A stretch of 36,840 nt of DNA from an uncultured Opitutales bacterium (GTDB taxonomy: Bacteria > Verrucomicrobiota > Verrucomicrobiia > Opitutales > UBA953). Both the position numbers and the translations under genes were made by a program. The notes below the pieces were generated by a model. The model was not told the origin of the DNA. It searched no databases and was given only the letters and a program-made list of their open reading frames with translations. The DNA lies in assembly GCA_934675585.1 (NCBI GenBank), contig CAKUQY010000019.1:1-36840 (forward strand). The letters run 5' to 3'. This document shows, one piece after another, positions 1 through 36,840 of the stretch; within the stretch, counting starts at the first letter, position 1, and each line of letters starts with the position of its first letter.

Positions 1-79
1 TCTTAAATGAAGAATAACTCCCAGAATCTTTCCTCTCAAAAAAATCTTCGGTGTCCTTTTTATTTGACGAAATACGACT
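1..79. repeat. Edge of a ~57-bp degenerate tandem repeat
   Basis: Read on the minus strand, this segment has TTCGTCAAATAAA (RC of about 59-71), then GACACCGAAG, then, 57 bp after the first element, a diverged copy beginning TTCTTCATTTAAG (RC of about 2-14). The right end of the window (36769-36840) carries the same elements in the same order on the plus strand. No reading frame is clearly conserved between copies. I see no gene here. It is a repeat of unknown function, possibly where an assembly broke. Confidence 0.55.
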
Positions 80-95
80 CGCAAATCTCAACAAT

Positions 96-125
96 TTGCG
101 AACATCGTAAGAATTATGGCATAAT
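96..125 (+). promoter_or_regulatory. Possible promoter of the phosphatase-ruvX pair
   Basis: A -35-like TTGCGA (96-101) and a -10-like CATAAT (120-125) are separated by 18 bp. The -10 ends 6 bp before the ATG at 132, so a transcript from here would be almost leaderless. No Shine-Dalgarno sequence is visible. This is inference from consensus matching only. Confidence 0.35.
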
Positions 126-131
126 TTTATT

Positions 132-608
132 ATGAAAAAAGTCTTATTCGTCTGCCTCGGAAACATTTGTCGCTCACCCGCCGCAAACGGCATTTTTGAT
201 GAGTTAATCGCAAAAAATAAACTCCAAGATAAAATCGCTTGCGATTCTTGCGGAACCGGCGATTGGCACATCGGCAGTTTGCCCGATGGACGAATGCGCG
301 CCGCGGGAACGCGCCACGGCTACAACTTTACACACCGCGCAAGACAATTCGATCCCGCCAATGATTTCAAAAAATTTGACCTAATCTTAACGATGGACAC
401 CGAAAATCTGCGCAATGTCCAAGCCCTCACCAGTGTTCCCGCCGATAAAGAAAAAATCAAACTTTTCACGACTTTTTGCACGGGAGATTACGCCAACACG
501 CTCATCGTCGAAGACCCATATTTTTCTGATTCGCCCAAAGCGTTCGACGACGTCATCGCCCAACTCGAAAACGGATGCCAAGAACTTTTAAAACAATTGA
601 CTAAATAA
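132..608 (+). CDS. Low-molecular-weight protein-tyrosine-phosphatase
   Basis: The 158-residue protein is the usual length for the LMW-PTP family, cytoplasmic enzymes that hydrolyse phosphotyrosine. The phosphate-binding loop CLGNICRS lies at residues 8-15, with nucleophile Cys8 and Arg14. The general-acid loop is VEDPYFSD, with Asp128. The family shares its fold with arsenate reductases, but the full C-x5-R-S loop plus the D-P acid loop favours a phosphatase. Bacterial members often regulate exopolysaccharide tyrosine kinases, but no kinase is in view, so the substrate is unknown. Both orientations of the window-wide motif occur inside the gene, read as SVPAD and AAGTR. ruvX follows after 2 bp, suggesting co-transcription. 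Confidence 0.92.
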   Translation: MKKVLFVCLGNICRSPAANGIFDELIAKNKLQDKIACDSCGTGDWHIGSLPDGRMRAAGTRHGYNFTHRARQFDPANDFKKFDLILTMDTENLRNVQALTSVPADKEKIKLFTTFCTGDYANTLIVEDPYFSDSPKAFDDVIAQLENGCQELLKQLTK

Positions 609-610
609 AA

Positions 611-1042
611 ATGAATTTTTTAGCCATTGATTACGGACAAAAACGCATCGGGCTCGCCCACGGCGACAGCGAACTCGCCATGCCGTTCCCGCTACCTTGC
701 GCCAACCAAGCCTCCGAAGACGAACGCATCGCCGCCATCGCCACAATTATTACGCGTTACCGCATCGGGCACCTCATCGTCGGCTATCCCGTCAATATGG
801 ACGGCACGCACGGCTACAAAACAAAAGAAGTGGACGCATTTATCACAAAACTCGAAGCGCAATTTCATTTGCCAATCACGCGCGTTGACGAAACCCTCAC
901 CAGTTACGCCGCCGAATCGCAACTTTCTGCAAAACGCAAAGGCGGCCGTAACGCAAAAGCCCACCAAGCTCACCGCAAAACCGGCGAAATCGATTCCCTC
1001 GCCGCCACCATCATTCTGCAAGATTTTTTCAACGCGCAATAA
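611..1042 (+). CDS. ruvX: RuvX/YqgF-family RNase H-fold nuclease
   Basis: The 143-residue protein is normal length for the RuvX (YqgF) family, which processes pre-16S rRNA 5' ends and was first annotated as a putative Holliday-junction resolvase. The N-terminal strand AIDYGQKRIG carries the first catalytic Asp (residue 7). The VGYPVNMDGT region and the VDETLTSYAAE strand with further acidic residues follow, and the C-terminal EIDSLAATIILQ helix holds the last catalytic Asp. The ATG lies 2 bp after the phosphatase stop with an A-rich, SD-less leader. A CGTTCCCG motif near 683 is read here as PFPLP, one of the few exceptions to the Val-Pro frame. Confidence 0.93.
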   Translation: MNFLAIDYGQKRIGLAHGDSELAMPFPLPCANQASEDERIAAIATIITRYRIGHLIVGYPVNMDGTHGYKTKEVDAFITKLEAQFHLPITRVDETLTSYAAESQLSAKRKGGRNAKAHQAHRKTGEIDSLAATIILQDFFNAQ

Positions 1043-1623
1043 ACCCACGGGAACGGAAAACGACTTTTTTCAACTGCGAATTAAACTAATTAAACTAATT
1101 TTTCAAACACAGACGAGCTGGATTTTAACACAGATTTCACAGATGGTTTTGTGTGATAACTCTCGCTCTCAACTTTCAACTATAAACTAAAAAAACAATT
1201 CGTTTTAATCAGCGACAATTCGTAGTCAAAAAAAAACATTCCCCGTTCCCGCGTTCCCGACATTCCCGCGAAGTTTTTTTAGTTCACTCCCTTCGGGACT
1301 GATGTTATTTTTATTTTACCCCCACACGCTCGCGTTCCCGCTCGCTTTTGTGGGGGTTAGCCATCGCGGGAACGCGTTCCCGCGATTTCAGTGCCTTCGG
1401 CACAGCAAAGTTTGCGGAGTAAAAATAAAATTGGATCCGCGAGACGCGCATCCTCCCATAAAATTTGCGCAATCGGCGAGATCTGCGTGAGAAATTTTCC
1501 CGCGTTCCCACGTTTCCACACCCCAAAAATAATTCGCGTAAATTAGCGTTTATTCGTAGTTGAAAAAAACTTTCCCGTTCCCGTGAACGTTAGTGAGCGA
1601 GCGTAAGCTACTCGCAATCGGTG
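1043..1623. repeat. Gene-free repeat region with a modular hairpin cassette
   Basis: No gene is supported here. From about 1281 there is a full copy of a modular repeat. Its parts are TCCCTTCGGGA (1288-1298), a CCCCCAC/GTGGGGG hairpin (1319-1356) with motif copies in its loop, and a perfect 20-nt palindrome of two opposed motifs (1365-1384). GTGCCTTCGGCAC (1391-1403) and an imperfect hairpin GGAT...ATCC (1433-1453) follow, then TCCTCCCATAAAATTTGCGC. A separate short element shared with 16050-16095, 19525-19560 and 33160-33200, containing ATTCGTAGTTGAAAAAA, lies near 1530-1570. At 1584-1623 begins the 3' flank shared with the other PEP-CTERM genes. Confidence 0.75.
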
Positions 1624-1661
1624 TTAAAAAACGTTCCCGCAAAGTTGCCTTCACGGGAACG
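1624..1661 (-). terminator. Terminator of PEP-CTERM gene 1, built from two opposed motifs
   Basis: On the minus strand, CGTTCCCG and CGGGAACG form an 8-bp stem around a 14-nt loop, followed by a U-run (A-tract 1624-1631 on the plus strand). It lies 30 bp past the stop of the PEP-CTERM gene. Near-identical terminators follow PEP-CTERM genes 2 and 3. This is a classic intrinsic-terminator layout made of the window-wide motif. Confidence 0.8.
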
Positions 1662-1691
1662 ACAAAACAATATGAAAAAATTCTTTTCAAA

Positions 1692-2474: not shown

Positions 2475-2575
2475 ATTTTGTGTATATTTATTTAGGTTGT
2501 TGTTGAATGTTATTTTTTAGAACTACAAAAATTCTAAAATCGAAAAAAAAAACGCAAGCACAAAATTAAATTTTT
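2475..2575 (-). promoter_or_regulatory. PEP-CTERM leader and promoter with a poly-T tract
   Basis: On the minus strand the order is TTGTGCTTGCG, a run of T (10 on this copy), CGATTT, TAGAAT (plus-strand 2531-2536), then a roughly 55-nt A/T-rich leader to the ATG. If TTGCGT (2552-2557) is the -35 and TAGAAT the -10, the spacer is 15 bp. The same block, nearly base for base, precedes the gene at 15443 but with 13 T, giving an 18-bp spacer. The exact hexamers are inferred. The T-run falls between them in either reading. Confidence 0.6.
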
Positions 2576-3359
2576 ACTTTTTCGCAGCAACGCAAATTTT
2601 TCAAGGAGGCAGCGCCGATCAACGCGAGGTGAAACCAATTTTATCTTCGCTTCCTTTTGTGGGGGTTAGCCATCGCAGGAACGCGTTCCCGCAATTTTAG
2701 TGCCTTCGGCACAATTAAAAAAACTATTTTCCCCTATTCTGCCTACGGTTTCTCAATTTCTGTTCCCGCACTCCCGAGCAACAAACAACAATTCTTAGTT
2801 TCCCTTAAATTTTCCCCGTAGTTTCCTTAGATGAAAAATTCCCGTTCCCGCCGCAAACTCTCAGCTTTTTTAGTTCACTCCCTTCGGGACTGGTGTTATT
2901 TTTGTTTTACCCCCACACGCTCGCGTTTCCGCGAGCTTTTGTGGGGGTTAGCCATCGCAAGCGATTTTAGTGCCTTCGGCACAACTCAATTTTACCCCCA
3001 CACGCTCGCGTTCCCGCTCGCTTTTGTGGGGGTTAGCCATCGCGGGAACGCCTTCCCGCAATTTTAGTGCCTTCGGCACAGCAAAGTTTGCGGAGTAAAA
3101 ATAAAATTGGATCCGCGAGACGCGCATCCTCCCATAAAATTTGCGCAATCTGCGGAATCTACGTGAGAAAATTCCCGTTCCCGCCGTTCCCGCGTTCCCG
3201 CGAAGTTTCCCGTATTCTGTCGCGCTTTCAGCGCTTGGAGTTTGCGGAAAAAATAATAAAAATGGAGCGGCAAGATGCCGCTCCTCCCATAAAATCTGCG
3301 CAATCTGCGGAATCTGCGTGAGAAAATTCCCGTTCCCGCCGTTCCCGCGTTCCCGAGAA
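2576..3359. repeat. Gene-free region with four hairpin-cassette copies
   Basis: No gene is supported. Partial or full cassette copies lie at about 2652-2711, 2870-2985, 2986-3175 and 3215-3359. The last carries GCGCTTTCAGCGC (3222-3234) and the perfect hairpin GGAGCGGC-AAGAT-GCCGCTCC (3264-3284) in the place where other copies have a different stem. Each of the last two copies ends in three head-to-tail CGTTCCCG motifs (about 3177-3207 and 3330-3357). The tandem layout suggests duplication of whole cassettes. Short open frames here are by-products of the repeats. Confidence 0.75.
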
Positions 3360-4699: not shown

Positions 4700-4701
4700 A
4701 A

Positions 4702-5604: not shown

Positions 5605-5616
5605 TTCTAAAAAATT

Positions 5617-7269: not shown

Positions 7270-9543
<2,274 letters not shown>

Positions 9544-14495: not shown

Positions 14496-14533
14496 TAAAA
14501 AAACGTTCCCGCAAAGTTGCCTTCACGGGAACG
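14496..14533 (-). terminator. Terminator of PEP-CTERM gene 2, two opposed motifs
   Basis: The 8-bp CGTTCCCG/CGGGAACG stem and following U-run on the minus strand are the same as in the 1624-1661 copy, including the loop. It lies 40 bp after the stop of the gene at 14574. Confidence 0.8.
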
Positions 14534-14573: not shown

Positions 14574-15443
14574 TTATTTTGTCTTGCGACGACGGCGCGC
14601 ACCAACCAACGCCAGCGCACCCAATCCCGCCAACAAACCAAACATCGACGGCTCAGGAACGACATAAGAAACGAATATACCGTCGGCTGTTTTTGAAACA
14701 AAATAGTCGCCAGCTGCTTTTAACTCTTCTTCGCTGTTAACACGTTTCAATTCGCTTACGCCGTCAATCGAACTCGAAAAACTAAACGCTGTCTCCGTTG
14801 TGTCAAAAGTTACATGTTCTCCCAACGAAACCAAAGTTCGCTTGACAATTGCGTTCCCAGATTCAGCCGTGCCCGTGACGGTTCCCGAATTGCCAAGTTT
14901 CGCGTTGACAGAAGCAACCTTTGATGTGCGATCCGTAGTGTTATTTGCGGTAAAATTCACAATGCCAGTTTCGCCAAGAATCATATCAAATCCCTCGCCG
15001 CCTTGACTTTTGGCGTATTGGAAATTAAATGTTCCGTAATTTTCCAGAGTTGTTTTGCCTCCGTCGTTTCCCCAAGAAGCCCCAAAACTATTAATTGTCA
15101 GCGTCGAATCTTTATTAATGGTAACGGAACATCCACCTTGAAATTTTTTCAATCCACTAATGGTCAAATCCGTGTTTATTAAATCGATTTTAAAACACCA
15201 GCCTTCAAGACTACCAATTATGCCAGAGGCATTTTCAATCCTGATTTTATCCCAAGCATCAGAATCAGGAGAACCTGGACCTGTTCCGCTTGTCGGGAAC
15301 GTTGTTTCGCCCGTCAAAGTCCAGGAACTTGACGTTTGCCATAATTCCTGACTAATGGTCGATCCGCCCTTCCAAACGAAATCCGCGTTCACGGCAAGCG
15401 TTCCCATCGCGAGGAGGGATGTAATTGTAATAATATTTTTCAT
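14574..15443 (-). CDS. PEP-CTERM sorting-domain protein 2
   Basis: The 289-residue protein has signal peptide MKNIITITSLLAMGTLAVNA, a Gly/Thr/Asn-rich beta-solenoid-like middle (FVWKGGSTISQELWQTSSSW...; short strands such as TTLENYGTFNFQYA), and a PEP-CTERM tail VVPEPSMFGLLAGLG followed by ARRRRKTK. The WKGG...W start and repeated short strands resemble the passenger style of autotransporter-associated repeat proteins in this phylum. By family it is exported and surface-sorted by an exosortase not seen here. The motif is rarer inside than in most genes. Leader and terminator are near-identical to those of PEP-CTERM gene 1, the middle is not. Confidence 0.9.
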   Translation of the reverse strand: MKNIITITSLLAMGTLAVNADFVWKGGSTISQELWQTSSSWTLTGETTFPTSGTGPGSPDSDAWDKIRIENASGIIGSLEGWCFKIDLINTDLTISGLKKFQGGCSVTINKDSTLTINSFGASWGNDGGKTTLENYGTFNFQYAKSQGGEGFDMILGETGIVNFTANNTTDRTSKVASVNAKLGNSGTVTGTAESGNAIVKRTLVSLGEHVTFDTTETAFSFSSSIDGVSELKRVNSEEELKAAGDYFVSKTADGIFVSYVVPEPSMFGLLAGLGALALVGARRRRKTK

Positions 15444-15545: not shown

Positions 15546-16151
15546 GCCTTCCCGCAAGATTAAAAAATCAAAAAATTTCTTCGTTTTCTTTAGCGAGCGA
15601 ACGCGAGTAGGTGCTCTTAAATTCTTTTTTTTTCTTGTTCCCGCGCCTGCCAACAAAAAATCTTAGTTTCCCTTAAATTTTCCCGTAGTTACCTTAGTTG
15701 AAAAATTCTCCTTCCCGCAAACTCTCAGCTTTTTTAGTTCACTCCCTTCGGGACTGATGTTATTTTTATTTTACCCCCACACGCGAGACGCGCATTCGCG
15801 CGACTATGACGATGACAATGACGATGACCGAGTTTGAAAATAACTGAAATAAAATTCACTCGCTTTTGTGGGGGTTAGCCATCGCGGGAACGCGTTCCCG
15901 CAATTTTAGTGCCTTCGGCACAGCAAAGTTTGCGGAGTAAAAATAAAATTGGATCCGCGAGACGCGCATCCTCCCATAAAATTTGCGCAATCGGCGAGAT
16001 CTGCGTGAGAAATTTTCCCGCGTTCCCGCATTCCCGCGTTCCCGCTCCCTTAAAAATAATTCGCGTAAATTAGCGCTTATTCGTAGTTGAAAAAACGTCC
16101 CCTAAACCCGCGAACGTTAGTGAGCGCGCGTGAGTTACTCGCAATCGGTGT
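15546..16151. repeat. Hairpin-cassette repeat with an expanded loop
   Basis: There is no gene here. A full cassette copy runs from about 15731 to 16030: TCCCTTCGGGA, CCCCCAC...GTGGGGG, opposed motifs (about 15885-15902), GTGCCTTCGGCAC and the GGAT...ATCC hairpin (15951-15971). Compared with the 1281 copy, the CCCCCAC loop carries about 75 extra bases including GACGATGACAATGACGATGA, a short-repeat stretch also seen at the end of ligA. The TCGTAGTTGAAAAAA element is at about 16080-16093 and the shared PEP-CTERM 3' flank starts at about 16110. Confidence 0.75.
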
Positions 16152-16187
16152 TAAAAACGTTCCCGCAAACCGAAGTTCACGGGAACG
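16152..16187 (-). terminator. Terminator of PEP-CTERM gene 3, two opposed motifs
   Basis: The CGTTCCCG/CGGGAACG stem and U-run on the minus strand match those of genes 1 and 2, but the loop differs (CAAACCGAAGTTCA instead of CAAAGTTGCCTTCA). Stem conserved and loop changed supports a working hairpin. Confidence 0.8.
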
Positions 16188-16227: not shown

Positions 16228-19200
16228 TTATTTTGTCTTGCGGCGACGACGCGCACCAACTAATGCCAACGCACCCAAACCCGCAAGCAAACCAAACATC
16301 GACGGCTCAGGAACGCTGAGAGTAATTACGCCGTTAGCATAACTCGTAATACTCCAGCCATCCCAGTCCGTGCCAAGCATAAAATTGTCTTTTGTAAACG
16401 AACTTGAGATTGAAGTGTCTGCAATCTTAAAAGTCATTTCCGTTGCAATTGTCAATGAATCAAGTTCACCCTTTGCCAAATTAATCTTGTTGCCATTAAG
16501 CGTAATCGAACCTGATCCCGTAATTGCGGCAACGCTACCGTCCATGCCCGACTTGTATTTGTCGCTCAAAACGATTTCAAGCGCAGAAACATTCAAAGAA
16601 ACATTCGCCACGCTCAACTGACCGCCAGCGATTTTAACTGCCCCCGTGCCGAGTGCCGACGCGTTTCCTGCCTGAACCGTTCCCGCGTTAATTGTAACGC
16701 CGCCCGAGAAAGTATTCGCCGCATTCAAAACAAGCGTTCCCGCGCCGAGTTTGGTGATTTTGCCAACTTCTCCCTCAATATTCGAAAGCCCACCGTTAAG
16801 CGTGATTGTGTATTGTTCTGTATCAAATTTTGCACCCGCGCCGAGCTGGAATTTCTCCTTTTCAATAGCCTCGGCAGAAGCCCAATTCGTTGACGCACCA
16901 ATTGTTGCATCTTTAATTTGCAATTTATAGTCATAATTAGTGCCTTCGCAAATACCTTTCGCGCCAATATTCATCCTAATACCGCCGTCAAGAACATATG
17001 TGCCGACATTGCCAACACCGAACTTGTCTGTATTAATCGTTCCCGTTCCCGTAATCGTGTTGGTCATGCCCCCAGAAGAATACAAAAGCCCTTCTCCCGT
17101 AAGATTCAAAACTCCGTCAACGGTCAAGGTTTTCACACCCCAAGAGTTTCTCAAAGCGGAGGCGGTAACGGTCGCATTTTTATGAATGGTAAACGTGCGG
17201 TTTGTTCCGTTATTATCCGCCTGCTGAATTTCTCCAGTAATCGTATAATTCGCGGGTGCAGCGCCCTCTGCGATTGAACCGAAAACTACAGCCGTGCTTC
17301 CGCCAGTAACTTTCAGGGTGCCGAGCGTCGTTGAAGCACTGGAAAAATTCGTCGTGCCGCCAGAAATATTCAGGGTGCCGAGCGTCGTTGAAGCACTGGA
17401 AAAATTCGTCGTGCCACCAGAAATATTCAATGTGTCGATCGTTGTCTCACCAGAAAAATTCGTCGTGCTACCTGAAGCCCCGAGATAAAGCGTCGAACCC
17501 GCTTCGCCAGTAAACGACCCTGCAAAAGTCGTTGTTCCCTGTTCAAAACCGAACGAAGAACCCTCCGTTAAAGTAACTGCACCCGTGTATGTGATATTTC
17601 CATTGCCACGCTGTTTAGCATCACCCACATTTCCTGGATTTGTACATTGACCCGAAAATACAAATTCTTGAGAATATTCTTTCGTTTCACTTGTCCACAA
17701 ATACGCATTGTTAATAACGACTTTTGTCGCGCCGCCAAGTTCCGTATCTCGTGGCAAATTCGCATTCCCAGAAATTTCCACCGTTCCCGTGAAATCCGAC
17801 CCAAGTTTAACTCCGGAAGAGTGATCGGTATTCGCGCCGTTAAATTTAAACGTTCCCGTGCCCGCCAAATTGGAGAAATCAACCTTAGACGCAGTAACAT
17901 CGCCGACATTCAAAACAACGTTTTGATTGATCGTCGTTTTCGCGCTCATTGTCAAATTCGCCGCAGTGGCAAGATTAATCGTTCCCGAGCCCTCGAATGT
18001 TGTCGCTTGTGAAACCGTCATTTTATTCGGATCAACAGTGCCCGAAACTGTAACTTTCGCGTTAGCAGTGCTGAACGTTACCGAATCGCCGTTTGCGAAA
18101 TCGTATTTTGTTTCGGAAGTACCACTTGTTCTATTCCAAACATTATTCTCGGCAGTCGTGTTCCAAACAGCATTTTCGACTCCTGCCCAAACCAAGTCTG
18201 AATAAACCGTGCCAAGAGTTACAGACAACGTCCCGTTGCTGTTTGTAATTTTCGAACGTCTATTAACTACAACTCCATCGCTCGAAAAGTTTTCCAAAGT
18301 CAGCAAATTCCCGTTCGTAATCGTTCCGTTTCCAGAAATAAGCGTGTAAACATTGTTGCTCGCGGTCAAACCGTCCAAATTAAAAATAGTATTCGTGCTA
18401 ACCGTTACCGTTCCCGAATTTGTAATCGCAGAAGCAAACGAAACGTTCGCGCCAGAAAGATCAAGATTTGCATTCTCCGCAACAGAAGCCGTTCCCGCGA
18501 CAGTCAAATTTGATGAAAATTTCAATGTTCCCGCGGAAACCGTAAGATTGTTCAAATACGATGTTCCCGTGAATGTTTGCGTTCCCGTTCCGCTCATTGT
18601 CAAACTAAGCGAACTTGCATTCGTTGAAGATCCAAGCGTTCCCGCAAAGCTATAATTCCCCGCTCCCGTAATTTCGAGCGTGCGCGCCGTTTCATCGTTC
18701 GTATTGTATGCGGTTTGTTTATTGTAAACATTATTACTGTTCGAATCATACACATATGTACTTGGCACACCGTAAGAAATAATTGCAGTATTCGCATCTG
18801 TCGAATTTACGCCCGCAACTTTTACATTGGTCGTTGAAACGGCGAGAGAAGCATATTGACCAAGCGCAATTGTAGCGCCTGACGCGACCGATTCGTTACG
18901 AATCATTAAAACTTGAGAATAATGGTTTCCTTCCGTTGCTGACGAACCGTTCCAAACGTTAATTGTCCCAGAAAAACCCATAGAAGTTGCACTCTCCGTC
19001 CCAAGAACAAGCGCTCCGCCCCATGTTTCTATTTTTGTTTTTGCAAAAGTTAAAGTGCCAGAACCCGCGATATTGTCAATCAAAACCAAATCGCAGACTG
19101 CTTCCTTAATTGTTAAAGAAGAATTTGCAGCAGACAAATCAAGAGTCCCGATTGACAAATTTTTATTATTTGCCGAAAACGTAATTTGCCCCGCAATACC

Positions 19201-19581: not shown

Positions 19582-19628
19582 AAAAAAAGCGTTCCCGCGA
19601 AGTGTTTTCACGGGAACGCGCTTTTTTT
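19582..19628 (-). terminator. Terminator of the aminotransferase gene, two opposed motifs
   Basis: GCGTTCCCG (19590-19598) pairs with CGGGAACGC (19611-19619), flanked by A7 on one side and T7 on the other. It can therefore work in both directions. On the minus strand it lies 11 bp after the ilvE-type stop and ends in a clean U-run. It is another terminator assembled from the window-wide motif. Confidence 0.88.
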
Positions 19629-21451: not shown

Positions 21452-24070
21452 TTATTCTTTTTTGAAATCCAACGTTCCCGAACAATTGATTGCCTTGTCG
21501 GTTTTTCGTTCGAGTTTCAGCGTGTATGAACCGAGCCCGCTGCGCAGTTTCGCGACTTTCAGCGAATACGTTCCCGCCGAACCCGCCGCGCTGTCAACGA
21601 GCGTTTCGTCTTCGTAAAGTTTTGCGCTGATAAAATCAAAATTCTCCGTTCCTGCCGTTTTTTGCAGCGTTGCGACAAACGTTCCCGCGGAAGTGATTTT
21701 GTCGGTTACGTCAAACTCGACGGTTTTCCCGCCGTCATTCAGCGAAAACGGCAATTCTCCGCTTGCGGGAACGCCAAAAAGTTCGTTCCCGAGCGGTGCA
21801 AATTTAGCGTAAATCGCTTTCGCGACCGCGAGCGTGTTTCCTTCGGGCTTGGAACTGTAATTCATTTTTGGATTATCCCGCCATTCGTCGGTAATGCGGT
21901 TTGCCTCGGCGGCAACGTTCCCGCGCGCGTCGTTCCCTGCAAGCGCCGCCTTATGCGCGTCCACAAACGCTTTCCAGCGCGGCAGATAACAATCTTTCAT
22001 CATTCCTGCAAGCTGGCGGTTGGAATAATTTTCGAGCGCGCTGTGCTGTTCGCTCCAAGTCGTCACGAGCATTTTCGCGTTGCGCAACATTTGTTCCTGC
22101 TCTTTTTTATTAAAACCTTTGGCTTTTGCTTGTTCGCAAATGCGACCAAAACGCCAGAGACGGTGCGTCGCGAGCAATTTATCGGTGTATTCAATCGTCG
22201 CCAAAAAGTCCGCCGAAGATTTATCGAACGCGGCGGCATTTTTAGCATCAAAATCTTCCATCATTTTTTTGAGCAATGGTCTCGCGAGATCGGCGAGAAA
22301 TTGTCTGCCGACGTCGCAAAGATCCCAGCGGAAAGTTTCCGTTCCCGCGAGCTCGGCATCAAGCGTTCCCGCGGCGATCAATTTCGCAAACGCCGCCTGT
22401 GTGTCCGCTCCGCTCCAATAAACGTTCGCGCTCGACCAGGTCGAAGCTTTGACCGCGTTGCGATGCGGATTCGCGCACAAAATCGATTCCGTGCAGCCCT
22501 CCTGTTCGCGGTCTGGACGGTAAACCGAACGTTCCAAAATATGCCAAGCGTTTTTGGCGTTTTGCGATTTTCTGCCGTAGCGGCGCATCACAAAATCATC
22601 AACCCACTCCGAAATTTCGCCTTCGCTCATAATTTTGTCTTTTGCCATCCAAACGCGGTCAAAAAACAAATCGTAGAAAAACGGATTCACTTCGGTTCCC
22701 TCGGGAATGATGCCGATTCCCTTCATTTCTGCGTTCCCGCCGATTTTTCCCAAATCGCCGAGCACCCGCAGCGAGCCATACATGCCGTGGTTCCCGCCAA
22801 AATTAGACAATTCGCACCAAATCCAAGGCGCGCCCCAGAACGAGCGCGGATGTTCCGTTCCCGTCGCCAAATCCTTGCAAAGCGCGAGCACCATCGTTTT
22901 GTCTTTGTCGATACCGTCAATAATTTCTTTGCGTGGCGAATTATGCCAAGATTGCAAAACCCAAGTCGCTCCCAGAGCCGCTTTTTGCTGGGCTTTTTGA
23001 ACAGCTTTTGCCGCCGCGCCCACATCGATGCCCTCGGCGTTCCCGCCTTCATGGAAAAGATCGCCGCCCAGCGCCTCGGGAACGCGTTCGCCCGTGTAGC
23101 CGTAAACTTTTTTTAGATTTTTATACCAAATTTCGGCGACGATCGGGAACGCTTCGTTGGTCGGATCAAGCAAAACGGGACGCTTGAATCCCGCGACCCA
23201 GTTCCCCTGATCGATCAGGCGCGCGTTGTATTTTTGAATTCCTTTCGCCTTGTCAAAATCGTGTGGAACAAGCCCTGTAAAACCTTGCAAAATCGGCTTC
23301 ATTCCGTAATTTTCCATGCGCTGAACGATAAATTTTCCGAGCTCGGCTTCGGCTTCGATTTGTTTTTTAGAAAGCGGACCGCCGTGCCCTTCGAGATTTC
23401 CCATGTTCCACCACGCCGCGAACGCGGGAGCGGGAATAAATTTTTCAATATTTTCTTTGGGATAACCGAGTTCCTGAAGCGTGAGCTGCCATACTTTTTC
23501 CAATCCCGCCTGCACAAGCAAACGATTCATGCCCAAAAGCGCCATGCGGTCGATTTCCTCCGCCCATTCTTTTTTGCCCCAAAACGCGGACGTGTACGAA
23601 AGCGTGCAATAATTGTAAGCGTAGCGCCAAGCCCATGGCGAATCGAGTTTTACGCCCTTAAAATTCTTCGCGGGAACGGCGGGTTCGAGTCGGTTGCCGC
23701 TCCACGAAATTTCCATTTTCAAAACATTGCGCAGATAATGACCGTAGCCGCCGATCAAATCGTTGTCGTTCCCGCCACGAACAATCACTTTTTCGCCCGA
23801 TGTTTTCACTTCAAAGCCGCGCATTCCTTTCACCAAAACGAACGACACATCTTCGGGAGCGTTCACGCCGAGACGCGCCACAAGCGCCTTGCGCTGAAGT
23901 TCGGGCGTTTTTGCGTTTTCGTCAAGTTTGACAGCCACGTGACGCTTGATTTTTTTTGCGGGAACGCTCCGCGCGGGAACGTCTTTCGCCGCGTTCTGTG
24001 CCAAAATTTCAACGGGAACGGCGGTCAAAAACACCGCCAAAGCAATAGAGGTGAAAAACAACTTTTTCAT
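21452..24070 (-). CDS. Exported alpha-N-acetylglucosaminidase (GH89, NAGLU-like)
   Basis: The 872-residue protein is homologous to GH89 enzymes, which remove terminal alpha-GlcNAc from heparan sulfate or mucin-type glycans. It has signal peptide MKKLFFTSIALAVFLTAVPVEILA, a small N-terminal domain (to about 135; GGNDNDLIGGYGHYLRN) and a catalytic barrel with YNYCTLSYTSAFWGKKEW, EEIDRMALLGMN, AAWWNMGNLEGHGGPLS, LQGFTGLVPHDF and WCELSNFGGNHGMYG. An all-helical region follows, and an extra beta-rich C-terminal domain (about 780-872) not found in plain NAGLU. The human catalytic glutamates should fall near the TNEAFP and CELSNFGG regions. It is probably periplasmic or secreted, and it has no glycan-utilisation neighbours. 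Motifs cluster after the signal peptide (DVPARSVPAKK). Confidence 0.9.
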   Translation of the reverse strand: MKKLFFTSIALAVFLTAVPVEILAQNAAKDVPARSVPAKKIKRHVAVKLDENAKTPELQRKALVARLGVNAPEDVSFVLVKGMRGFEVKTSGEKVIVRGGNDNDLIGGYGHYLRNVLKMEISWSGNRLEPAVPAKNFKGVKLDSPWAWRYAYNYCTLSYTSAFWGKKEWAEEIDRMALLGMNRLLVQAGLEKVWQLTLQELGYPKENIEKFIPAPAFAAWWNMGNLEGHGGPLSKKQIEAEAELGKFIVQRMENYGMKPILQGFTGLVPHDFDKAKGIQKYNARLIDQGNWVAGFKRPVLLDPTNEAFPIVAEIWYKNLKKVYGYTGERVPEALGGDLFHEGGNAEGIDVGAAAKAVQKAQQKAALGATWVLQSWHNSPRKEIIDGIDKDKTMVLALCKDLATGTEHPRSFWGAPWIWCELSNFGGNHGMYGSLRVLGDLGKIGGNAEMKGIGIIPEGTEVNPFFYDLFFDRVWMAKDKIMSEGEISEWVDDFVMRRYGRKSQNAKNAWHILERSVYRPDREQEGCTESILCANPHRNAVKASTWSSANVYWSGADTQAAFAKLIAAGTLDAELAGTETFRWDLCDVGRQFLADLARPLLKKMMEDFDAKNAAAFDKSSADFLATIEYTDKLLATHRLWRFGRICEQAKAKGFNKKEQEQMLRNAKMLVTTWSEQHSALENYSNRQLAGMMKDCYLPRWKAFVDAHKAALAGNDARGNVAAEANRITDEWRDNPKMNYSSKPEGNTLAVAKAIYAKFAPLGNELFGVPASGELPFSLNDGGKTVEFDVTDKITSAGTFVATLQKTAGTENFDFISAKLYEDETLVDSAAGSAGTYSLKVAKLRSGLGSYTLKLERKTDKAINCSGTLDFKKE

Positions 24071-24766: not shown

Positions 24767-25558
24767 TCAATTATTTTCTGGGAATAAGAGATTTAAAATT
24801 TCAAGGATGTCGTGTCTATGCGCGAATGATAACAAACCAAATAATTTCGCAACTTCAAGTAAGAAAATTGCTTCTTCTTTTCCAATTATCCAAATAGCAG
24901 ATTCCCCTTTTTCTGCAACACGCCCATCGATAAAATTGCCGTTAATTGAAGAACAAACATATTTTACGGGAACGCAAATATAAAGCATTGGTTGAATACC
25001 GACTGCTCGTTGTTTTTCTGTAACAAGAATTTCCGTTACCGTCTCGTAATCTTTATATTTATGAACAAGCAACGGATATTTTACATCCATTCGCTGGAAC
25101 TCAATTCCGTTAATTACTTCGAGTTTTGGATTTGAGCGCCAAACATTTAAACAATTTTCAAGCAATTCTTCATCACTAAAATTTTTAATCGTCGATTTAA
25201 CAACTTTGATTTCATCATTGGAAATTAGCCCCAATTGTTTTGAATAAAACAAAATTTCAGCTAATTCATACGGCATTTTTAAAACACCTTTATAATTCTC
25301 AAAACTACAGTTTTTTAAACTCGTTTTTTCTAAATTTTCAGTTTTTTTCTCTAAATCATAGCCAATTTGCCATTCAATATATGCTGTCGTGGGAACAATT
25401 TCGCTACGGGTCGACACAGGTTTTCCGTATTCGTGAAAAACATTTCGATCTTTAACTCTAACTTTACCTGTAGGCGAGGTAATCGGCAAAAACACTTGAA
25501 GTTTTTGTCCATTCAAAAATTCAATTTTTACTTGTGGTTTGTTCGTGCTATTCGACAT
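24767..25558 (-). CDS. R.PabI-family restriction enzyme (predicted GTAC-specific DNA glycosylase)
   Basis: The 263-residue protein is encoded with a DNA methyltransferase. Its N-terminal part KIEFLNGQKLQVFLPITSPT, then KVRVK, then YIEWQIGYD, resembles R.PabI and Helicobacter HpyAXII. Those enzymes excise adenine from 5'-GTAC-3' and so restrict by base removal instead of hydrolysing a phosphodiester. From memory, R.PabI uses K30, R32, E63, Y68, H211 and D214; here the same spacing is found as K32-x-R34, E62-x4-Y67 and H247-x2-D250. It is about 35 residues longer than R.PabI. It overlaps the methyltransferase stop by 11 bp. No PD-(D/E)xK or HNH motif is visible, which agrees with this assignment. 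The DNA is A/T-richer and almost motif-free. Confidence 0.68.
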   Translation of the reverse strand: MSNSTNKPQVKIEFLNGQKLQVFLPITSPTGKVRVKDRNVFHEYGKPVSTRSEIVPTTAYIEWQIGYDLEKKTENLEKTSLKNCSFENYKGVLKMPYELAEILFYSKQLGLISNDEIKVVKSTIKNFSDEELLENCLNVWRSNPKLEVINGIEFQRMDVKYPLLVHKYKDYETVTEILVTEKQRAVGIQPMLYICVPVKYVCSSINGNFIDGRVAEKGESAIWIIGKEEAIFLLEVAKLFGLLSFAHRHDILEILNLLFPENN

Positions 25559-26783
25559 AGTGTTCTCCCAATAATTTTTTAAAATAATTTTTTATTTTCT
25601 CTTCAAACTTATCGGGGGCTACTTTTTCGCGTTCCCACAAATTTAAATCTGGATTTTTCAATGATGACGCATAAACAAAACAATCTTCGATTTTTAAAAA
25701 TTCGTCGTTGTCAATCATTGGTTCACAATTGCCTAAATAAAAAGGAATATGATTAATATTGTCCTTAAAAACATCAAGGTAACAATAATATTTCAAGTGT
25801 TTTTTTACGACGAAAACTGTATTGCCTGCTGTTTTTTTTATAAATGTTCGTGAACGACGTAGTGCATTTATATCTCGCAAAGTGTAAAATTTAGCAACAG
25901 TTTCACATTCTTTTACTTTTTTTTGATTAGGATATTTTTGAACGAATGCGCCGATTCCACACCAACGATCTAACGAAAAACACTTGCCGTCAACCAATCT
26001 AAATTGAAATTTTAAAATATCGTCATAAACCATTCCTTGACCATCTCGCTTGTAAAGAGCAACAATTATTGGGAATTGTGTTATTTTTGACACATCTGAA
26101 AATTCATTGCTCGAAACAATTCTCGCATCAATTAATTTATAATTTTCTGTAAACTGGCGAATCGATTTAAAATTGGTTTTTTTTATCAAATAAGAAAGCG
26201 GATGCAAAACACAGATATAATCAGCGGAAAGTTTGTTAAACGATAACAAAAACGACATCCCCATATCTCGATGCCTTAAATCTTTATCACATGGGAATGA
26301 TTTTTCTTTTATCGATGAACGAATGATCGAAGTAGTATCGTTGTAAGGCGGATTTCCAACAACAATCAACTTGTCGCTACCTGTTAAATTATATTTTTTT
26401 CGATCTACATCAACAAGAGCGTTCGCCTCATAAAAAACAGCTGCGGGAACGTTTTTTTGCGCTTTTTCAACCGCAAGAGGATCAATATCCCCGCCAATTC
26501 GATACGGGAACATATCATTTTCAAGGAACGAACCATAACCACAAGATGTGTCAATCAAAACATAATCTTGAAAATTTTCAATGTGATTTTTTATCAAATC
26601 ATAAGCAATTTCAACAAGCTTTTGTGGAGTATAAAATGCACCTTGATTAACTTGGTCTATTTTAGATAAATGTATTTGACGTTCCGCCCATGCTTCACTA
26701 CCGCAAAAACCAATATTACACGTTGTCAACGTCATTGCCGACGACAATGCTATCTTTGCAATTAATGAATCTGTTGGCTCCAT
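25548..26783 (-). CDS. Adenine-specific DNA methyltransferase (NPPY type)
   Basis: This is the modification partner of the downstream restriction gene. Start 26783 (MEPTDSLIAK, 411 residues) is preferred because the longer frame to 26846 would overlap lpxA by 55 bp; from 26783 the gap after the lpxA stop is 8 bp. Motif order is X (QGAFYTPQKLVEIAYDLI), I (VLIDTSCGYGSFL), II (GGDIDPLAVEKA), then IV (VVGNPPYNDTTS), as in gamma-class N6-adenine methyltransferases. The C-terminal half should hold the target-recognition domain. It is A/T-rich with one GGGAACG in 1.2 kb. Methylation specificity is predicted as GTAC only through its partner. Confidence 0.88.
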   Translation of the reverse strand: MEPTDSLIAKIALSSAMTLTTCNIGFCGSEAWAERQIHLSKIDQVNQGAFYTPQKLVEIAYDLIKNHIENFQDYVLIDTSCGYGSFLENDMFPYRIGGDIDPLAVEKAQKNVPAAVFYEANALVDVDRKKYNLTGSDKLIVVGNPPYNDTTSIIRSSIKEKSFPCDKDLRHRDMGMSFLLSFNKLSADYICVLHPLSYLIKKTNFKSIRQFTENYKLIDARIVSSNEFSDVSKITQFPIIVALYKRDGQGMVYDDILKFQFRLVDGKCFSLDRWCGIGAFVQKYPNQKKVKECETVAKFYTLRDINALRRSRTFIKKTAGNTVFVVKKHLKYYCYLDVFKDNINHIPFYLGNCEPMIDNDEFLKIEDCFVYASSLKNPDLNLWEREKVAPDKFEEKIKNYFKKLLGEHYVE

Positions 26784-26791
26784 CAAAACTT

Positions 26792-27568
26792 TTAAAAACT
26801 GCCGCGTTCGCTGGCTTTTTGGAAAGCGATTAATTTTTGCACGCAAGCATTTTGACCTTCGGGCATCGTTGCCAAAAGTTCGTGCGCTTGGCTTTGGTTG
26901 AGATCTTTAAAATAAAGCACGCGCCACGCTTGGCGAACAGCTTTAATATCTTCTTCTGAAAAACCATTGCGCTTTAACGCGACAAGATTAAATGCTTTCA
27001 CGCCACAATTTTCCACACCTTCAACAATCATGTAGGGAGGAACGTCTTTGACGATGCGCGACATCGCCGCAAGCATCGAATAATCACCAATACGACAAAA
27101 TTGATGAATACCCGCGCCCCAGCCAAAATTAACGTGATCACCGCAAACAACGTGTCCCGCAAACGCCGCTTGCGAGCTCATTACCAAAAAATTGCCAATT
27201 TGGCAATCGTGCGCCACGTGCGAATAGGCGAGAATATTATTGTCGTTCCCGAGCGTTGTAAATTGCCCGTCTTGCGTGCCGCCGTGAATTGTTACGTATT
27301 CGCGAAAGCAGTTGCGATCGCCAATTTTTAAGCCCACGCGACCACCGCAATATTTGAGATCTTGCGTCTTGCCACCAATCACCGCAAACGGATAAACCTG
27401 ATTGTCTTTGCCCAAAAAAGTGTAGCCCTCGACGCAAGCGTGGTGATGAATAACCGTTCCCGCGCTAATTGTCACTTCTGGACCAATGTAGGCGTACGCG
27501 CCGACGGTAACATTTTCGTCAAGCTGCGCGCCCGGTTCAATGATTGCGGTTGGATGAATATTTGACAT
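26792..27568 (-). CDS. lpxA: UDP-N-acetylglucosamine acyltransferase
   Basis: LpxA starts lipid A synthesis by transferring 3-hydroxyacyl from ACP to UDP-GlcNAc. The 258 residues form a left-handed beta helix of hexapeptide repeats: IHPTAIIEPGAQL, VTVGAYAYIGPEV, TIHGGTQDG. The catalytic His is in SHVAHDCQIG (His120, the counterpart of E. coli His125), and the C-terminal helical part has LVALKRNGFS. It lies 9 bp after lpxC-fabZ, giving an operon of three successive lipid A and fatty-acid functions. The restriction-modification pair follows directly after its stop. Confidence 0.97.
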   Translation of the reverse strand: MSNIHPTAIIEPGAQLDENVTVGAYAYIGPEVTISAGTVIHHHACVEGYTFLGKDNQVYPFAVIGGKTQDLKYCGGRVGLKIGDRNCFREYVTIHGGTQDGQFTTLGNDNNILAYSHVAHDCQIGNFLVMSSQAAFAGHVVCGDHVNFGWGAGIHQFCRIGDYSMLAAMSRIVKDVPPYMIVEGVENCGVKAFNLVALKRNGFSEEDIKAVRQAWRVLYFKDLNQSQAHELLATMPEGQNACVQKLIAFQKASERGSF

Positions 27569-27577
27569 AATTTGTTA

Positions 27578-28897
27578 TTAGAGGTTTGCGGCTTTTGCCA
27601 GTGAAACGGTAAACATAACGTCGGCGGAAGAAACGACTTCGCCATCAACTTTGCAGCACGCTTCCGCAGTAAAGATTTTGTTCCCGCGATTTTTAATGAT
27701 TTTCGATTCGATGACCAATTGATCGCCAGGCGTTACCATTTTGCGGAATTTCACCTTGTCGGCACTCATAAACAGCGTGATGTGCTCGCCTGGCTCGTTC
27801 GCGATCGCCAACAACATCAAGCCCGAAACCTGCGCCATCGCCTCTAATTGCAAAACGCCTGGCATCACAGGATTGCCCGGAAAATGTCCCGTGAAAAATG
27901 GTTCGTCGTTCGTCACATTTTTCAATGCCACAATCGACTTTACGCCGTGGTCGATGCTCAACACACGATCAACCATCACAAACGGATAACGGTGTGGCAT
28001 CAAATTCAAAATTTGCTTAATATTCAGCGCGGTCGCGTCGGCGGGAACGGCTTCTTTTTTCTTTGGCGGTGTCAACATTTGCGTGCGAATCGCTTGCGAC
28101 AATTTGCCGTTGAGCGCGTGACCCGTGCGCACCGCGATAATATGAGCCTTGACAGGAACACCCACCAAAACAATGTCGCCCACCAAATCCATAATTTTAT
28201 GACGCACAAATTCATCTTGATAACGCAAACCGCCGTTCGCAATAACGTCATCGCCCTTAATCACAATCGCACAATCAAGCGAACCGCCTTGAATCAAACC
28301 CGCCTTGCGCAACTTTTCAATATCATCAAAATCCGCAAACGTGCGCGCACCACAAAGCAATTTTTCATAATTCTCTGGCGTAATCTCAATCGTCAAATTT
28401 TGCGTGTGTTTACCACGATCATCTGTCGAAGTTAAAGTAATTTTTAAACCATCATACGGCACCGCAACAATCGAACGATCACCATCAATCACCGAAACAG
28501 GTTCCCGCAAAACATAATAAACGCGCTCCTTCTCTTGCTCGACAATGCCTGCTTCCTTGATCATCTCAACAAACGGCAACGCAGAACCATCTAAAATCGG
28601 CGGCTCAGACGAATCCATCTCAATCACACAATTATCAATCCCCATACCATTGAGCGCCGAATTCACATGCTCAATCGTATGCAACTGAAAATGCCCTTTC
28701 GAAATCGTCGTGTTGCGAACACTCTTGCCCAACATATCCGCCACAGGACGCAACTCTGGCGTTCCCGCAACATCAATACGACGATAAACAATCCCCGTAT
28801 CCTCCGCCGCAGGTTTTAAAGTCAAAGTCACATCAACTCCCGAATGCAAACCTTTACCGCTAATTGAAACTTCTTTAGAAAGTGTGCGTTGCTTCAT
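27578..28897 (-). CDS. lpxC-fabZ: Fused LpxC deacetylase and FabZ dehydratase
   Basis: The 439-residue two-domain protein has start 28897 (MKQRTLSKEV), chosen because GGAG lies 6 bp upstream, one of the few clear SDs here, and LpxC begins there; the frame to 28990 adds only repeat-derived residues. The LpxC domain (1-270) has zinc ligands HTIEH (His77) and RHKIMD (His233, Asp237), with general acid His260. It deacetylates UDP-3-O-acyl-GlcNAc, the committed step of lipid A. The linker (about 275-290) contains a motif-encoded AVPAD. The FabZ domain (290-439) has PHRYPF, GHFPGNPVMPG (His338) and LEAMAQ (Glu352), and dehydrates 3-hydroxyacyl-ACP. Such fusions are known in Bacteroidota and relatives. 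Confidence 0.96.
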   Translation of the reverse strand: MKQRTLSKEVSISGKGLHSGVDVTLTLKPAAEDTGIVYRRIDVAGTPELRPVADMLGKSVRNTTISKGHFQLHTIEHVNSALNGMGIDNCVIEMDSSEPPILDGSALPFVEMIKEAGIVEQEKERVYYVLREPVSVIDGDRSIVAVPYDGLKITLTSTDDRGKHTQNLTIEITPENYEKLLCGARTFADFDDIEKLRKAGLIQGGSLDCAIVIKGDDVIANGGLRYQDEFVRHKIMDLVGDIVLVGVPVKAHIIAVRTGHALNGKLSQAIRTQMLTPPKKKEAVPADATALNIKQILNLMPHRYPFVMVDRVLSIDHGVKSIVALKNVTNDEPFFTGHFPGNPVMPGVLQLEAMAQVSGLMLLAIANEPGEHITLFMSADKVKFRKMVTPGDQLVIESKIIKNRGNKIFTAEACCKVDGEVVSSADVMFTVSLAKAANL

Positions 28898-29082
28898 AAT
28901 ATCTCCATTATAAAACGAAATCAACGTTCCCGCGAGATATTTTAACCAAAACCCAACCGCGCCACAGGAACAATAAAAACTAATTCTCACGCAGCTCTCG
29001 CGGATTTTACAAATTCTTTAATGCCGCGCGGGAACGGAAAATTTTCTCGCCCGAAGGACAAAGCTGCCCAAGTTTCGTCGGT
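28898..29082. repeat. Intergenic copy of the 14157 repeat block
   Basis: There is no gene. From about 28985 the sequence repeats the 14159-14282 block: TCTCACGCAGCTCTCGCGGA, AATGCCGCGCGGGAACGG and TTTTCTCGCCCGAAGGAC. The block ends inside the 3' end of the broken lipoprotein gene, where its GGTTTAAGCTGCCGAA stem is decayed. The lpxC SD (GGAG) lies at about 28903-28906. Confidence 0.65.
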
Positions 29083-32682: not shown

Positions 32683-32743
32683 CAGAATTCAGGGAATAAC
32701 TATGATAACATCTCTATTTTTATTAAGATAAATAGTCGACAAA

Positions 32744-32758
32744 GTTATTTTTGATAAC
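32744..32758. promoter_or_regulatory. Possible operator GTTAT-n5-ATAAC
   Basis: A perfect 5-5-5 inverted repeat sits 25 bp before the RHH-like remnant, with a second TGATAACA half-site at about 32703. Ribbon-helix-helix repressors often bind such short inverted half-sites in their own promoter. This is inference only. Confidence 0.3.
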
Positions 32759-32768
32759 GGCGGGAACG

Positions 32769-33020: not shown

Positions 33021-33120
33021 GATGTTTTTTATTTGTTAGTTAAAATAGGGTTAAAAATTTTTCAAGAATGAGTTTATATTTTTAAAAATTTTAAAACTCG
33101 AAAAAAAAAAAACGCAAGCA
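33021..33120 (-). promoter_or_regulatory. Leader and promoter of the truncated surface-protein gene
   Basis: This is the same layout as for the large PEP-CTERM gene: GTGCTTGCG, a T12 run, CGAGTTTTAAAATT and an A/T-rich leader with TTAACTAACAAATAAAA next to the ATG. The T-run is 12 here, compared with 10, 13 and 10 in the other three copies. Confidence 0.5.
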
Positions 33121-33912
33121 CTTTTTTTATCCGCGGGAACGCGGGAACGGGAAAGGTTTTTTTCAACTACGAATAAGCGCCAATTTACGCGAAGAAAAAT
33201 TTCAAAAGCGCTTCACGAAAAGCGCGTTCCCGTGAGATTGGCGTTTGTGGTGAGAGTCGCGCTTTCAGCGCTGGTTTTTATTTATTTGCTTACCCAGGGC
33301 TTAAAATAAGTCGCGCCATTGGCGCTTTGAGTTTGCGAGAAAAAATAACAAAAATGGAGCGGCAAGATGCCGCTCCTCCCATAAAATTTGCGCAATCTGC
33401 GAGATCTGCGTGAGAAATAAAACCCGCGTTCCCACGTTCCCGCGAAGTTTTTTAGTTCACTCCCTTCGGGACTGATTTTACTTTTGTTTTACCCCCACAC
33501 GCTCGCGTTCGCTCGCGTTCGCTCGCTTTTGTGGGGGTTAGCCATCGCGGGAACGCGCTCCCGCAATTTTAGTGCCTTCGGCACAAGCCAAGTTCCTATT
33601 TATTTCTACTAAACCTACGGATTTTCCATTCCCGTTCCCGCTCACTCAAAAAAATCTGTGAAATCTGTCAAAAATCTGTTTCATCTGTATTCAAAAAATC
33701 CCGCGCCCCATTCCCGCGTTCCCGCGAAGTTTCCCGTATTCTGTCGCGCTGTTAGCGCTTGGAGTTTGCGGGAAAAAATAACAAAAATGGAGCGGCAAGA
33801 TGCCGCTCCTCCCAAAAAAACCTTTTCACCGCAGGCGCTTTTTTCGCGGGAACGCGCTTTTCGCAAAGCGCTCTTGAAATTATCCCGTTCCAGCCGTTCC
33901 CGTTCCCGCGCG
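33121..33912. repeat. Gene-free region of hairpin-cassette repeats
   Basis: No gene is supported. The modules are: a TCAACTACGAATAAGCGCCA element (about 33163); an inverted GCGCTT...AAGCGC module (about 33200); GCGCTTTCAGCGC (33259-33271), GCGCCATTGGCGC (33313-33325) and GGAGCGGC...GCCGCTCC (33356-33376). Next come TCCCTTCGGGA and CCCCCAC...GTGGGGG with a loop of repeated GCTCGCGTTC (33490-33540), and GTGCCTTCGGCAC (about 33571). Finally there are GCGCTGTTAGCGC (33746-33758), GGAGCGGC...GCCGCTCC (33789-33809), GCGCTTTTCGCAAAGCGC, and motif runs up to the uracil-DNA glycosylase stop. Confidence 0.75.
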
Positions 33913-34641: not shown

Positions 34642-34642
34642 T

Positions 34643-36547: not shown

Positions 36548-36583
36548 AGATTTATTTTAAACCAAGCGTTCCCGCGCATAAAA

Positions 36584-36614
36584 CAAAAAAACGAAGCCCG
36601 AAAGCTTCGTTTTT
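36584..36614. terminator. Bidirectional terminator after tRNA-Asn
   Basis: AACGAAGC and GCTTCGTT pair around CCGAAA, with A-runs before and T-runs after. On the minus strand it follows the tRNA 3' end by 5-10 bp with a U-run. It separates the tRNA transcript from sppA. Confidence 0.85.
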
Positions 36615-36618
36615 AAAG

Positions 36619-36693
36619 TGGCTGCCCAGGTAGGGATCGAACCTACGACCAATTGATTAACAGTCAACTGCTCTTCCGCTGAGCTACTGGGCA
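36619..36693 (-). tRNA. tRNA-Asn (anticodon GTT)
   Basis: On the minus strand TGCCCAG and CTGGGCA form the acceptor stem, followed by G and an encoded CCA (36619-36621). The D-arm AGCTCAGC...GAGC, the anticodon arm GTTGA-CTGTTAA-TCAAT with GTT in the centre, and the T-arm GTAGGTTCGATCCCTAC are all intact. The GTT anticodon reads AAC and AAU (Asn). Confidence 0.97.
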
Positions 36694-36699
36694 ATCAAA

Positions 36700-36737
36700 A
36701 TGTAAATACTATTAAACCATATTCCAATTTTTATGTC
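36700..36737 (-). promoter_or_regulatory. Promoter of tRNA-Asn
   Basis: On the minus strand TTGACA (about 36732-36737) is a perfect -35 and TTTAAT a good -10, with 17 bp between them, ending about 16 bp before the tRNA 5' end. It is the best consensus promoter in the window. Confidence 0.75.
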
Positions 36738-36764
36738 AAGTGTTTTTTTTCAGTGGGGAGTGTA

Positions 36765-36840
36765 GCGCATTTCGTCATAATAAATGACACCGAAGGTTTA
36801 GTTTTTGTGAAGGAGTGAAAGTTTTATTCGTCAAATAAAA
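36765..36840. repeat. ~57-bp degenerate tandem repeat at the right edge
   Basis: ATTTCGTCATAATAAATGAC with ACCGAAG (36769 on) is followed 56 bp later by ATTCGTCAAATAAAA (36826-36840), cut off by the window end. The same elements with a 57-bp period occur inverted at 1-79. I see no gene. Confidence 0.6.

Follow-up and report, generated by a model that had tools for sequence, protein, structure and literature searches.

A dense, clade-restricted octamer, CGGGAACG, in genomes of the Opitutia: a putative DNA uptake sequence

To our knowledge, uptake sequences with experimental support are confined to two proteobacterial families. The DNA uptake sequence (DUS) of the Neisseriaceae has ComP as its receptor, and the densest variant that we found reported, kingDUS, amounts to 5,918 copies in 2.4 Mb, or about 2.5 per kb (PMC3630211). 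The uptake signal sequence (USS) of Haemophilus influenzae is a 9-bp core within a consensus of 29 bp, two regions of which are less conserved (PMC1939737), and HIP1 of the cyanobacteria (GCGATCGC) is a very dense palindromic 8-mer that has methylase sites inside it and is tied to methylases (PMC4390886). Here we describe another 8-mer, CGGGAACG, which is scattered over a 36,840-nt stretch of DNA from an uncultured Opitutales bacterium (contig CAKUQY010000019.1; the whole stretch is called the window below) and over the genomes of its closest relatives. Most likely it is a putative self-DNA uptake sequence, a reading to which we assign a probability of roughly 0.6; judged by its genomic features CGGGAACG appears to work like DUS and USS, and membership in that class is not claimed. 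A search of the open-access literature returned no description of CGGGAACG or of any uptake sequence in the Verrucomicrobiota, in line with the original prediction, made from the letters of the window, that the element is undescribed.

The heptamer GGGAACG, put at about 180 copies in that prediction, was recounted at 182 in the window (80 on the + strand and 102 on the - strand), and the 4 to 5 copies held to be expected by chance agree with the ca. 4.5 that follow arithmetically from equal base frequencies. The longest form, GCGGGAACGC, had been thought to comprise most copies and proved to be a minority (63 of 182): numbers fall from 170 for CGGGAACG to 123 for GCGGGAACG and 63 for GCGGGAACGC as the word is extended outward, and the repeat unit therefore is the 8-mer CGGGAACG. 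We rejected GCGGGAACGC as the unit because its flanking G and C, common as they are, evolve at the background rate. An order-3 Markov model built from the window, whose unmasked background contains the motif, expects 24.8 copies of the 7-mer and 14.0 of the 8-mer; with the motif copies masked the expectation for CGGGAACG is 2.8, so that the 170 observed represent a 61-fold excess. These 170 copies, obtained by word counts on both strands over positions 1..36840, are placed nearly at random (variance/mean 0.8-1.2 in bins of 0.5-5 kb) and occur in both orientations, and, as had been predicted for nearly every gene, at least one lies in 28 of the 29 hand-listed genes, the sole exception being the gene at 19639-20508. 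Their density is 4.2 per kb inside automatically called open reading frames (ORFs), 7.2 per kb outside these, and 8.5 per kb outside the hand-listed genes. Starts on the + strand include 304, 1048, 1367, 1654, 1769, 3043, 4255, 4279, 4339, 4363, 9413, 9432, 9510, 9541, 33134, 33142, and 35536; those on the - strand include 684, 1244, 1252, 1333, 1375, 1576, 1632, 3176, 3185, 3193, 3331, 3340, 3348, and 36567. A further word, TGTGGGGGT, is found 11 times in the window (approximately 0 expected), with 9 copies outside ORFs.

The genome-wide tests were made in relatives of the window (57 relatives, and 384 genomes of the class), and they establish that CGGGAACG is abundant throughout the genomes of one clade of the Opitutia. 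Among the 57 relatives, GCGGGAACG reaches 3,060-4,396 copies in six high-copy genomes (G005-G010; 44-60 for the word read backwards as a control), 743 in G004 (control 62), and 336 in G001 (control 37), and in the other 49 it stays at or below about 1.6 times the backwards control. In the draw of 384 class genomes, which left out G004, G005 and G010, CGGGAACG itself numbers 6,550 in G006, 5,322 in G007, 5,274 in G008, and 5,434 in G009 (controls 85-105); these genomes of 1.6-2.1 Mb thus carry 2.7-3.3 copies per kb, against 4.6 per kb in the window. G001 has 546 copies (control 95), and the remaining 379 genomes have at most 991, with a ratio to the control below 4. At 80 LpxC loci the density is at most 0.32 per kb. 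Confinement of the motif to this contig is therefore rejected, given the thousands of copies in the relatives' genomes; this and a genome count at chance level had been named beforehand as findings that would overturn the prediction, and in the relatives neither holds. LpxC-FabZ places the window among the Opitutia (Verrucomicrobiota), a relative of the pilin of this clade bears the NCBI name 'Opitutales bacterium', and in a tree of one protein, LpxC, the window, G007, G001, G004, G006, G008, G009, and G010 form one clade (support 100/99; G005, where only short DNA matches were found, is not in the tree). Within it the window groups with G007 and G001, and G004 with G006, G008, G009, and G010; the two low-count genomes thus sit in different halves of the clade, and CGGGAACG must either have risen twice or decayed twice. 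In stretches of G004 it is the top over-represented 8-mer (79 copies; 16.2 expected). Words with one mismatch are enriched 1.72-fold in G001, 1.73-fold in G004, 1.91-fold in the high-copy genomes, and 1.23-fold in G011 and G012 together, which is suggestive, albeit not decisive, of G001 and G004 being decayed carriers. The word is retained at a G+C content (GC) of 0.47 (window) as well as 0.64 (G005).

Between relatives, CGGGAACG is conserved letter by letter. In aligned DNA we compared its retention with that of CpG-matched control words (CGNNNNCG with two internal G/C). For G006/G010, 72 of 85 and 72 of 77 copies are retained (controls 82 of 137 and 82 of 117), for G008/G009, 104 of 127 and 104 of 120 (controls 103 of 264 and 103 of 258), and for the window and G007, 18 of 25 and 18 of 21 (controls 5 of 32 and 5 of 38); in four further genome pairs retention is 78-90%, against 28-43% for the controls. 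Overall, 72-94% of the CGGGAACG sites persist, compared to 13-70% of the control words. Over 663 anchored copies pooled from four pairs, which are not independent since pairs share genomes and each was read in both directions, mismatches amount to 0.02-0.06 at the eight positions of the word, to 0.134 and 0.118 at its immediate neighbours, and to 0.07-0.21 further out. The window and G007 (47 copies) give 0.04-0.17 within the word and 0.17-0.49 in the eight columns on each side. The constraint covers exactly the eight columns of CGGGAACG.

A second characteristic is the arrangement of neighbouring copies. Counting neighbours whose starts are separated by 8-35 bases, we found 64 inverted pairs CGTTCCCG...CGGGAACG and 18 pairs of the opposite arrangement across the window and three long stretches, where uniform placement predicts 32.8 of each. 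Of the 64, 36 are intergenic, and 26 of these 36 are either preceded by an A-run or followed by a T-run; among single intergenic copies such a run accompanies 12 of 132, and among the pairs inside ORFs 7 of 28. The intergenic pairs are predicted to be terminator-like hairpins. Inverted intergenic uptake sequences likewise can form hairpins, and their role as terminators has been called contentious (PMC2346458). Examples from the window, all intergenic, are CGTTCCCG-N14-CGGGAACG after an A-run at 1632..1661 (a terminator-like hairpin), pairs with an A-run on the left at 14504..14533 and 16158..16187, and a pair followed by a T-run at 19590..19618 (again terminator-like). A pair with spacing 34 at 1333..1374, with a further copy at 1375, lies in a repeated intergenic segment. 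Such repeated segments, mostly intergenic, of 32-188 nt and in 3-7 copies each (families D1-D6), are found at 1252-1528, 2646-3359, 15707-16046, and 33338-33819, and some of them contain inverted pairs of CGGGAACG.

The word is found in coding as well as in intergenic DNA, and it marks the encoded proteins. Its density is 2.9, 3.2, and 2.9 per kb in three stretches of 231, 157 and 60 kb, respectively, and 4.6 per kb in the window, and ORFs of at least 200 aa without a copy number, in the same order, 13 of 134, 3 of 90, 3 of 38, and 1 of 20; outside ORFs the density is 1.2-1.7 times that within. Variance/mean of the counts is 0.6-1.4 in bins of up to 2 kb and 0.23-2.23 in 5-kb bins, so that the density drifts along the 231-kb stretch. 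In genes, 769 copies are in sense and 535 in antisense orientation, an excess for which composition accounts in part. Among 729 ORFs, taken from 35 pieces that represent the window and G005-G010, the tripeptides AGT (641 observed/127 expected from amino-acid frequencies), VPA (475/93), GNA (289/104), RER (344/95), RSR (324/93), TGT (238/63), and AFP (164/72) are abundant, with 535 copies of CGGGAACG encoding AGT. In the comparison set without the word (411 ORFs from 29 pieces, namely 19 of the 80 LpxC loci and 10 stretches of G011 and G012; ORFs in both sets were called by a simple longest-frame rule) the same figures are 49/74, 50/63, 20/44, 73/53, 63/51, 46/35, and 25/33. The tripeptides of the six frames (AGT, VPA, GNA, RER, RSR, AFP) thus are enriched 2.3-5.1-fold, compared to 0.5-1.4-fold in relatives without the word, from which we conclude that the pressure for CGGGAACG changes amino acids. 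Some possible translations are barely enriched (PGT 67/52, SFP 50/43, VPG 84/69).

Pooled over seven genomes, CGGGAACG is enriched 27-fold and its 24 one-mismatch variants 0.7-4.8-fold, unevenly so: CGGGATCG reaches 4.8-fold and CGGGAACA 4.0-fold, changes of the 5' C give 0.8-1.25-fold, and enrichment is higher toward the 3' end. This asymmetry suggests graded recognition, to which decay products contribute. A second dialect, CACCACCAACCC, was considered in G001 and rejected, being mainly intergenic and clustered, unlike CGGGAACG; the repeat lies in stretches L081-L100, where CACCAACCC occurs 229 times in 317 kb, 134 of them intergenic, with the copies clustered at short spacing, and it was not found in the stretches of G004 and G006 that were checked, nor in the window. 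Outside chromosomes, two exact motif patterns retrieved 10 and 28 viral stretches from IMG/VR, of which one 1.4-kb stretch (L266, GC 0.72) holds 12 copies and the others at most 1.2 per kb; the search is a weak one because a motif-dense contig need not contain either pattern. A search of a plasmid collection gave short ligA matches only.

On the uptake reading a surface receptor of a type IV pilus/ComEC transformation machinery would bind CGGGAACG, so that cells would favour DNA of their own clade over foreign DNA in both uptake and recombination. Such a preference could maintain thousands of copies of the word on either strand, within genes and between them, with its density presumably limited by what the encoded proteins tolerate. 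Core genes of the machinery are present. Of the competence genes that the original prediction proposed to look for, comEC and the type IV pilus ATPases were found, and a clear comEA was not. ComEC, DprA, and T2SSE ATPases (type II/IV secretion) are each present in 18 of 18 genomes, and G010 has three pilus ATPase genes, a PilC-like gene, and dprA within ca. 15 kb. The six high-copy genomes have seven pilin-like proteins each. One pilin family of 127 mature residues has relatives of nearly full length in every one of the eight genomes that bear the word and in 0 of 49 others, 18 of which give weak, mostly N-terminal matches; its predicted structure has a mean pLDDT of 73.8, and its sequence similarity to pilins of solved structure lies mainly in the N-terminal helix. 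We would guess it to be a candidate receptor or a pilus subunit.

Several results count against uptake. The competence genes are equally present with and without the word and hence do not discriminate, and the counts in G001 and G004 are low even though both genomes have ComEC and DprA. In the search for ComEA, strong HHH_3 matches fall in frames of 773-1198 aa and the shorter frames match weakly. No basic ComP-like pilin was seen: ComP and FimT carry an electropositive stripe (PMC12616744), and all 33 pilins sampled from five of the six high-copy genomes (none from G009, five of seven from G005) are acidic, with isoelectric points of 4.2-5.5. The 127-residue pilin is at most a candidate, as its co-occurrence with the word follows phylogeny. 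Two sister pairs with an outgroup gave, by parsimony, 26 gains and 37 losses of CGGGAACG (read from G006 and G008; reading from the sisters shifts the counts slightly). One-off sites shared by sister and outgroup (58, 57, 56, and 69 sites) turned into the word in 2 of 240 cases, close to the random expectation as we estimate it (1 in 24 of ca. 58 changed sites), and gains above chance from such sites are not apparent; the excess of CGGGAACG is thus explained by retention, not by a demonstrated bias in gain. Finally, 82 pieces from the six high-copy genomes, 1.44 Mb in all, contain five motif-free gaps longer than 3 kb, and just two of the five hold restriction genes: one has an MjaI-type endonuclease with a D12 methylase (GC 0.32) and another a GmrSD-type enzyme. 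Of the other three, one holds an ankyrin-repeat gene, one falls in a very long ORF, and one lies in the contig of G005 that carries the pilus ATPase.

The original prediction had named a HIP1-type element beside an uptake sequence. In such a scheme a DNA methylase and methyl-directed repair, not uptake, would drive or protect the word, and HIP1, which is linked to methylases, likewise is a very dense 8-mer (PMC4390886); the uneven enrichment of one-mismatch words is what a recognition-linked process of this kind would give. CGGGAACG, however, is not palindromic and has no inner palindrome of even four bases or more, and the 2 of 240 conversions, not above chance, speak against a mutational ratchet. 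Nor did a cognate methylase, suggested for follow-up, turn up as common to all six high-copy genomes in the families searched there, PF00145 and PF01555 (PF02384, PF07669, PF02086 and other methylase families were not searched genome-wide): PF00145 has no match in G005 or G009, and PF01555 matches a single frame of 277 aa in G008 and a single one of 401 aa in G010, of different types by length (not aligned). The lack of a palindrome and two methylase families seemingly not shared make this explanation unlikely and less probable than an uptake element. We prefer the latter also on account of the genome-wide and clade-restricted distribution, the 8-bp constraint, the hairpin pairs, and the presence of ComEC, DprA, and pilus ATPases. 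About equally unlikely is that CGGGAACG is the binding site of a protein that has no link to uptake and acts in the nucleoid, in repair, or in defence (self-marking); conservation and dispersal would then look identical and no receptor is known, yet terminator-like pairs point more specifically to uptake sequences and no candidate protein was found, though no systematic search was made.

Signals read by the recombination or segregation machinery, such as Chi or KOPS/AIMS, are rather less probable still. Chi is an asymmetric, over-represented 8-mer of a density far below that of CGGGAACG. The conservation of CGGGAACG would suit a signal of this type, as would its mildly uneven distribution between the strands of some contigs (58% in G006:C3 and 59% in G010:C1) and the share of 0.72 on the + strand in + strand genes of G010:C1 (0.62 for anagrams). 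Over whole stretches, however, CGGGAACG and its anagrams have similar shares on the + strand in all four cases examined (0.42/0.41, 0.59/0.55, 0.45/0.40, and 0.50/0.53), which disfavours both Chi and KOPS; the 3-5 copies per kb lie far above the density of Chi, and such signals need no terminator pairs. Least probable is that CGGGAACG arose passively by mutational bias or belongs to a dispersed repeat family. Some copies do lie within repeated intergenic segments of the window, but this explanation already is contradicted by the retention relative to CpG-matched controls and by a mismatch dip of exactly eight columns; copies in genes occur in all frames, and the same word is found at GC 0.47 and 0.64.

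If CGGGAACG is an uptake sequence, it could represent a third, independent origin of such sequences, in the Verrucomicrobiota, with an 8-bp self-tag, a new receptor unlike ComP, a density above that of the densest DUS found, and a rewriting of proteins across the proteome; this fuller claim we hold tentatively, at slightly less than even odds. Were it true, an independent case in another phylum would indicate that self-DNA recognition evolves convergently, would provide a comparative set for finding receptors, and would be a clear example of protein sequences being reshaped by a DNA word. The low-count members of the clade, G001 and G004, offer a natural experiment on gain or decay of the word.

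The genes of the window identified with Pfam, including LigA, FtsK, IspH, FtsY, NusB, LpxC-FabZ, and NAGLU, are those of an ordinary bacterial chromosome. The following lie on the - strand: ligA (7270..9459), a conserved gene with 14 copies of CGGGAACG (6.4 per kb); a gene for a NAGLU-type glycosidase (21452..24070) with 18 copies (6.9 per kb); lpxC-fabZ (27578..28990), for which the nearest of the genomes examined is G007 (88% aa, 79% nt) and the nearest database protein stands at 99% (P0001); and a restriction-modification pair (24767..26846; GC 0.33) with 2 copies in 2.08 kb, made up of an R.Pab1-type endonuclease (24767-25558) and an N6 DNA methylase (25548-26846). Low density is not unique to this pair (the aminotransferase gene at 19639-20508 has no copy and the gene at 14574-15443 has 1.15 per kb). 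The restriction genes in the window, L115 (where the MjaI-type enzyme is located), and L192 are poor in or free of CGGGAACG; that acquired DNA lacks the word is weakly shown by this trend, which fits in few cases. GTAC is depleted in the window (8 observed, 37.9 expected), which fits a specificity for GTAC, as that of PabI, in the R.Pab1-type enzyme. In pooled stretches of the clade CTAG (0.09), GGCC (0.12), and GTAC (0.19) are strongly depleted, which suggests long exposure to restriction enzymes. Three PEP-CTERM proteins (1692-2474, 14574-15443, and 16228-19344) have C-terminal coding regions that are 80-83% alike (family D9).

Among the described systems, Chi shares with CGGGAACG that it is an asymmetric, over-represented 8-mer, and differs from it in that CGGGAACG has a strand bias near that of anagrams and a far higher density. 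HIP1, too, is an 8-mer of very high density restricted to one group; it is palindromic with methylase sites inside (PMC4390886), whereas CGGGAACG is not palindromic and no methylase common to its carriers turned up in PF00145 or PF01555. The USS of the Pasteurellaceae resembles it as a short genome-wide word with inverted intergenic pairs and unequal orientation in genes, and the sense excess of CGGGAACG recalls this orientation bias (PMC2346458); the longer consensus of H. influenzae sets USS apart (PMC1939737), as the constraint on CGGGAACG stops at 8 bp. With the DUS of the Neisseriaceae it has in common that its short, non-palindromic copies run into the thousands and lie on both strands, inside genes as well as between them, that inverted pairs occur, and that the word is specific to a clade. 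Its density of 2.7-3.3 per kb in genomes and 4.6 per kb in the window is at or above that of kingDUS, the densest DUS found (PMC3630211), with the qualification that a shorter word, here an 8-mer, has more chance copies. From DUS it differs in being of unrelated sequence, in its 8 bp instead of 10-12, in belonging to another phylum, and in that no basic ComP-like pilin was identified. Relative to the known uptake sequences, CGGGAACG would be new in its unrelated sequence, its shorter unit, and its phylum.

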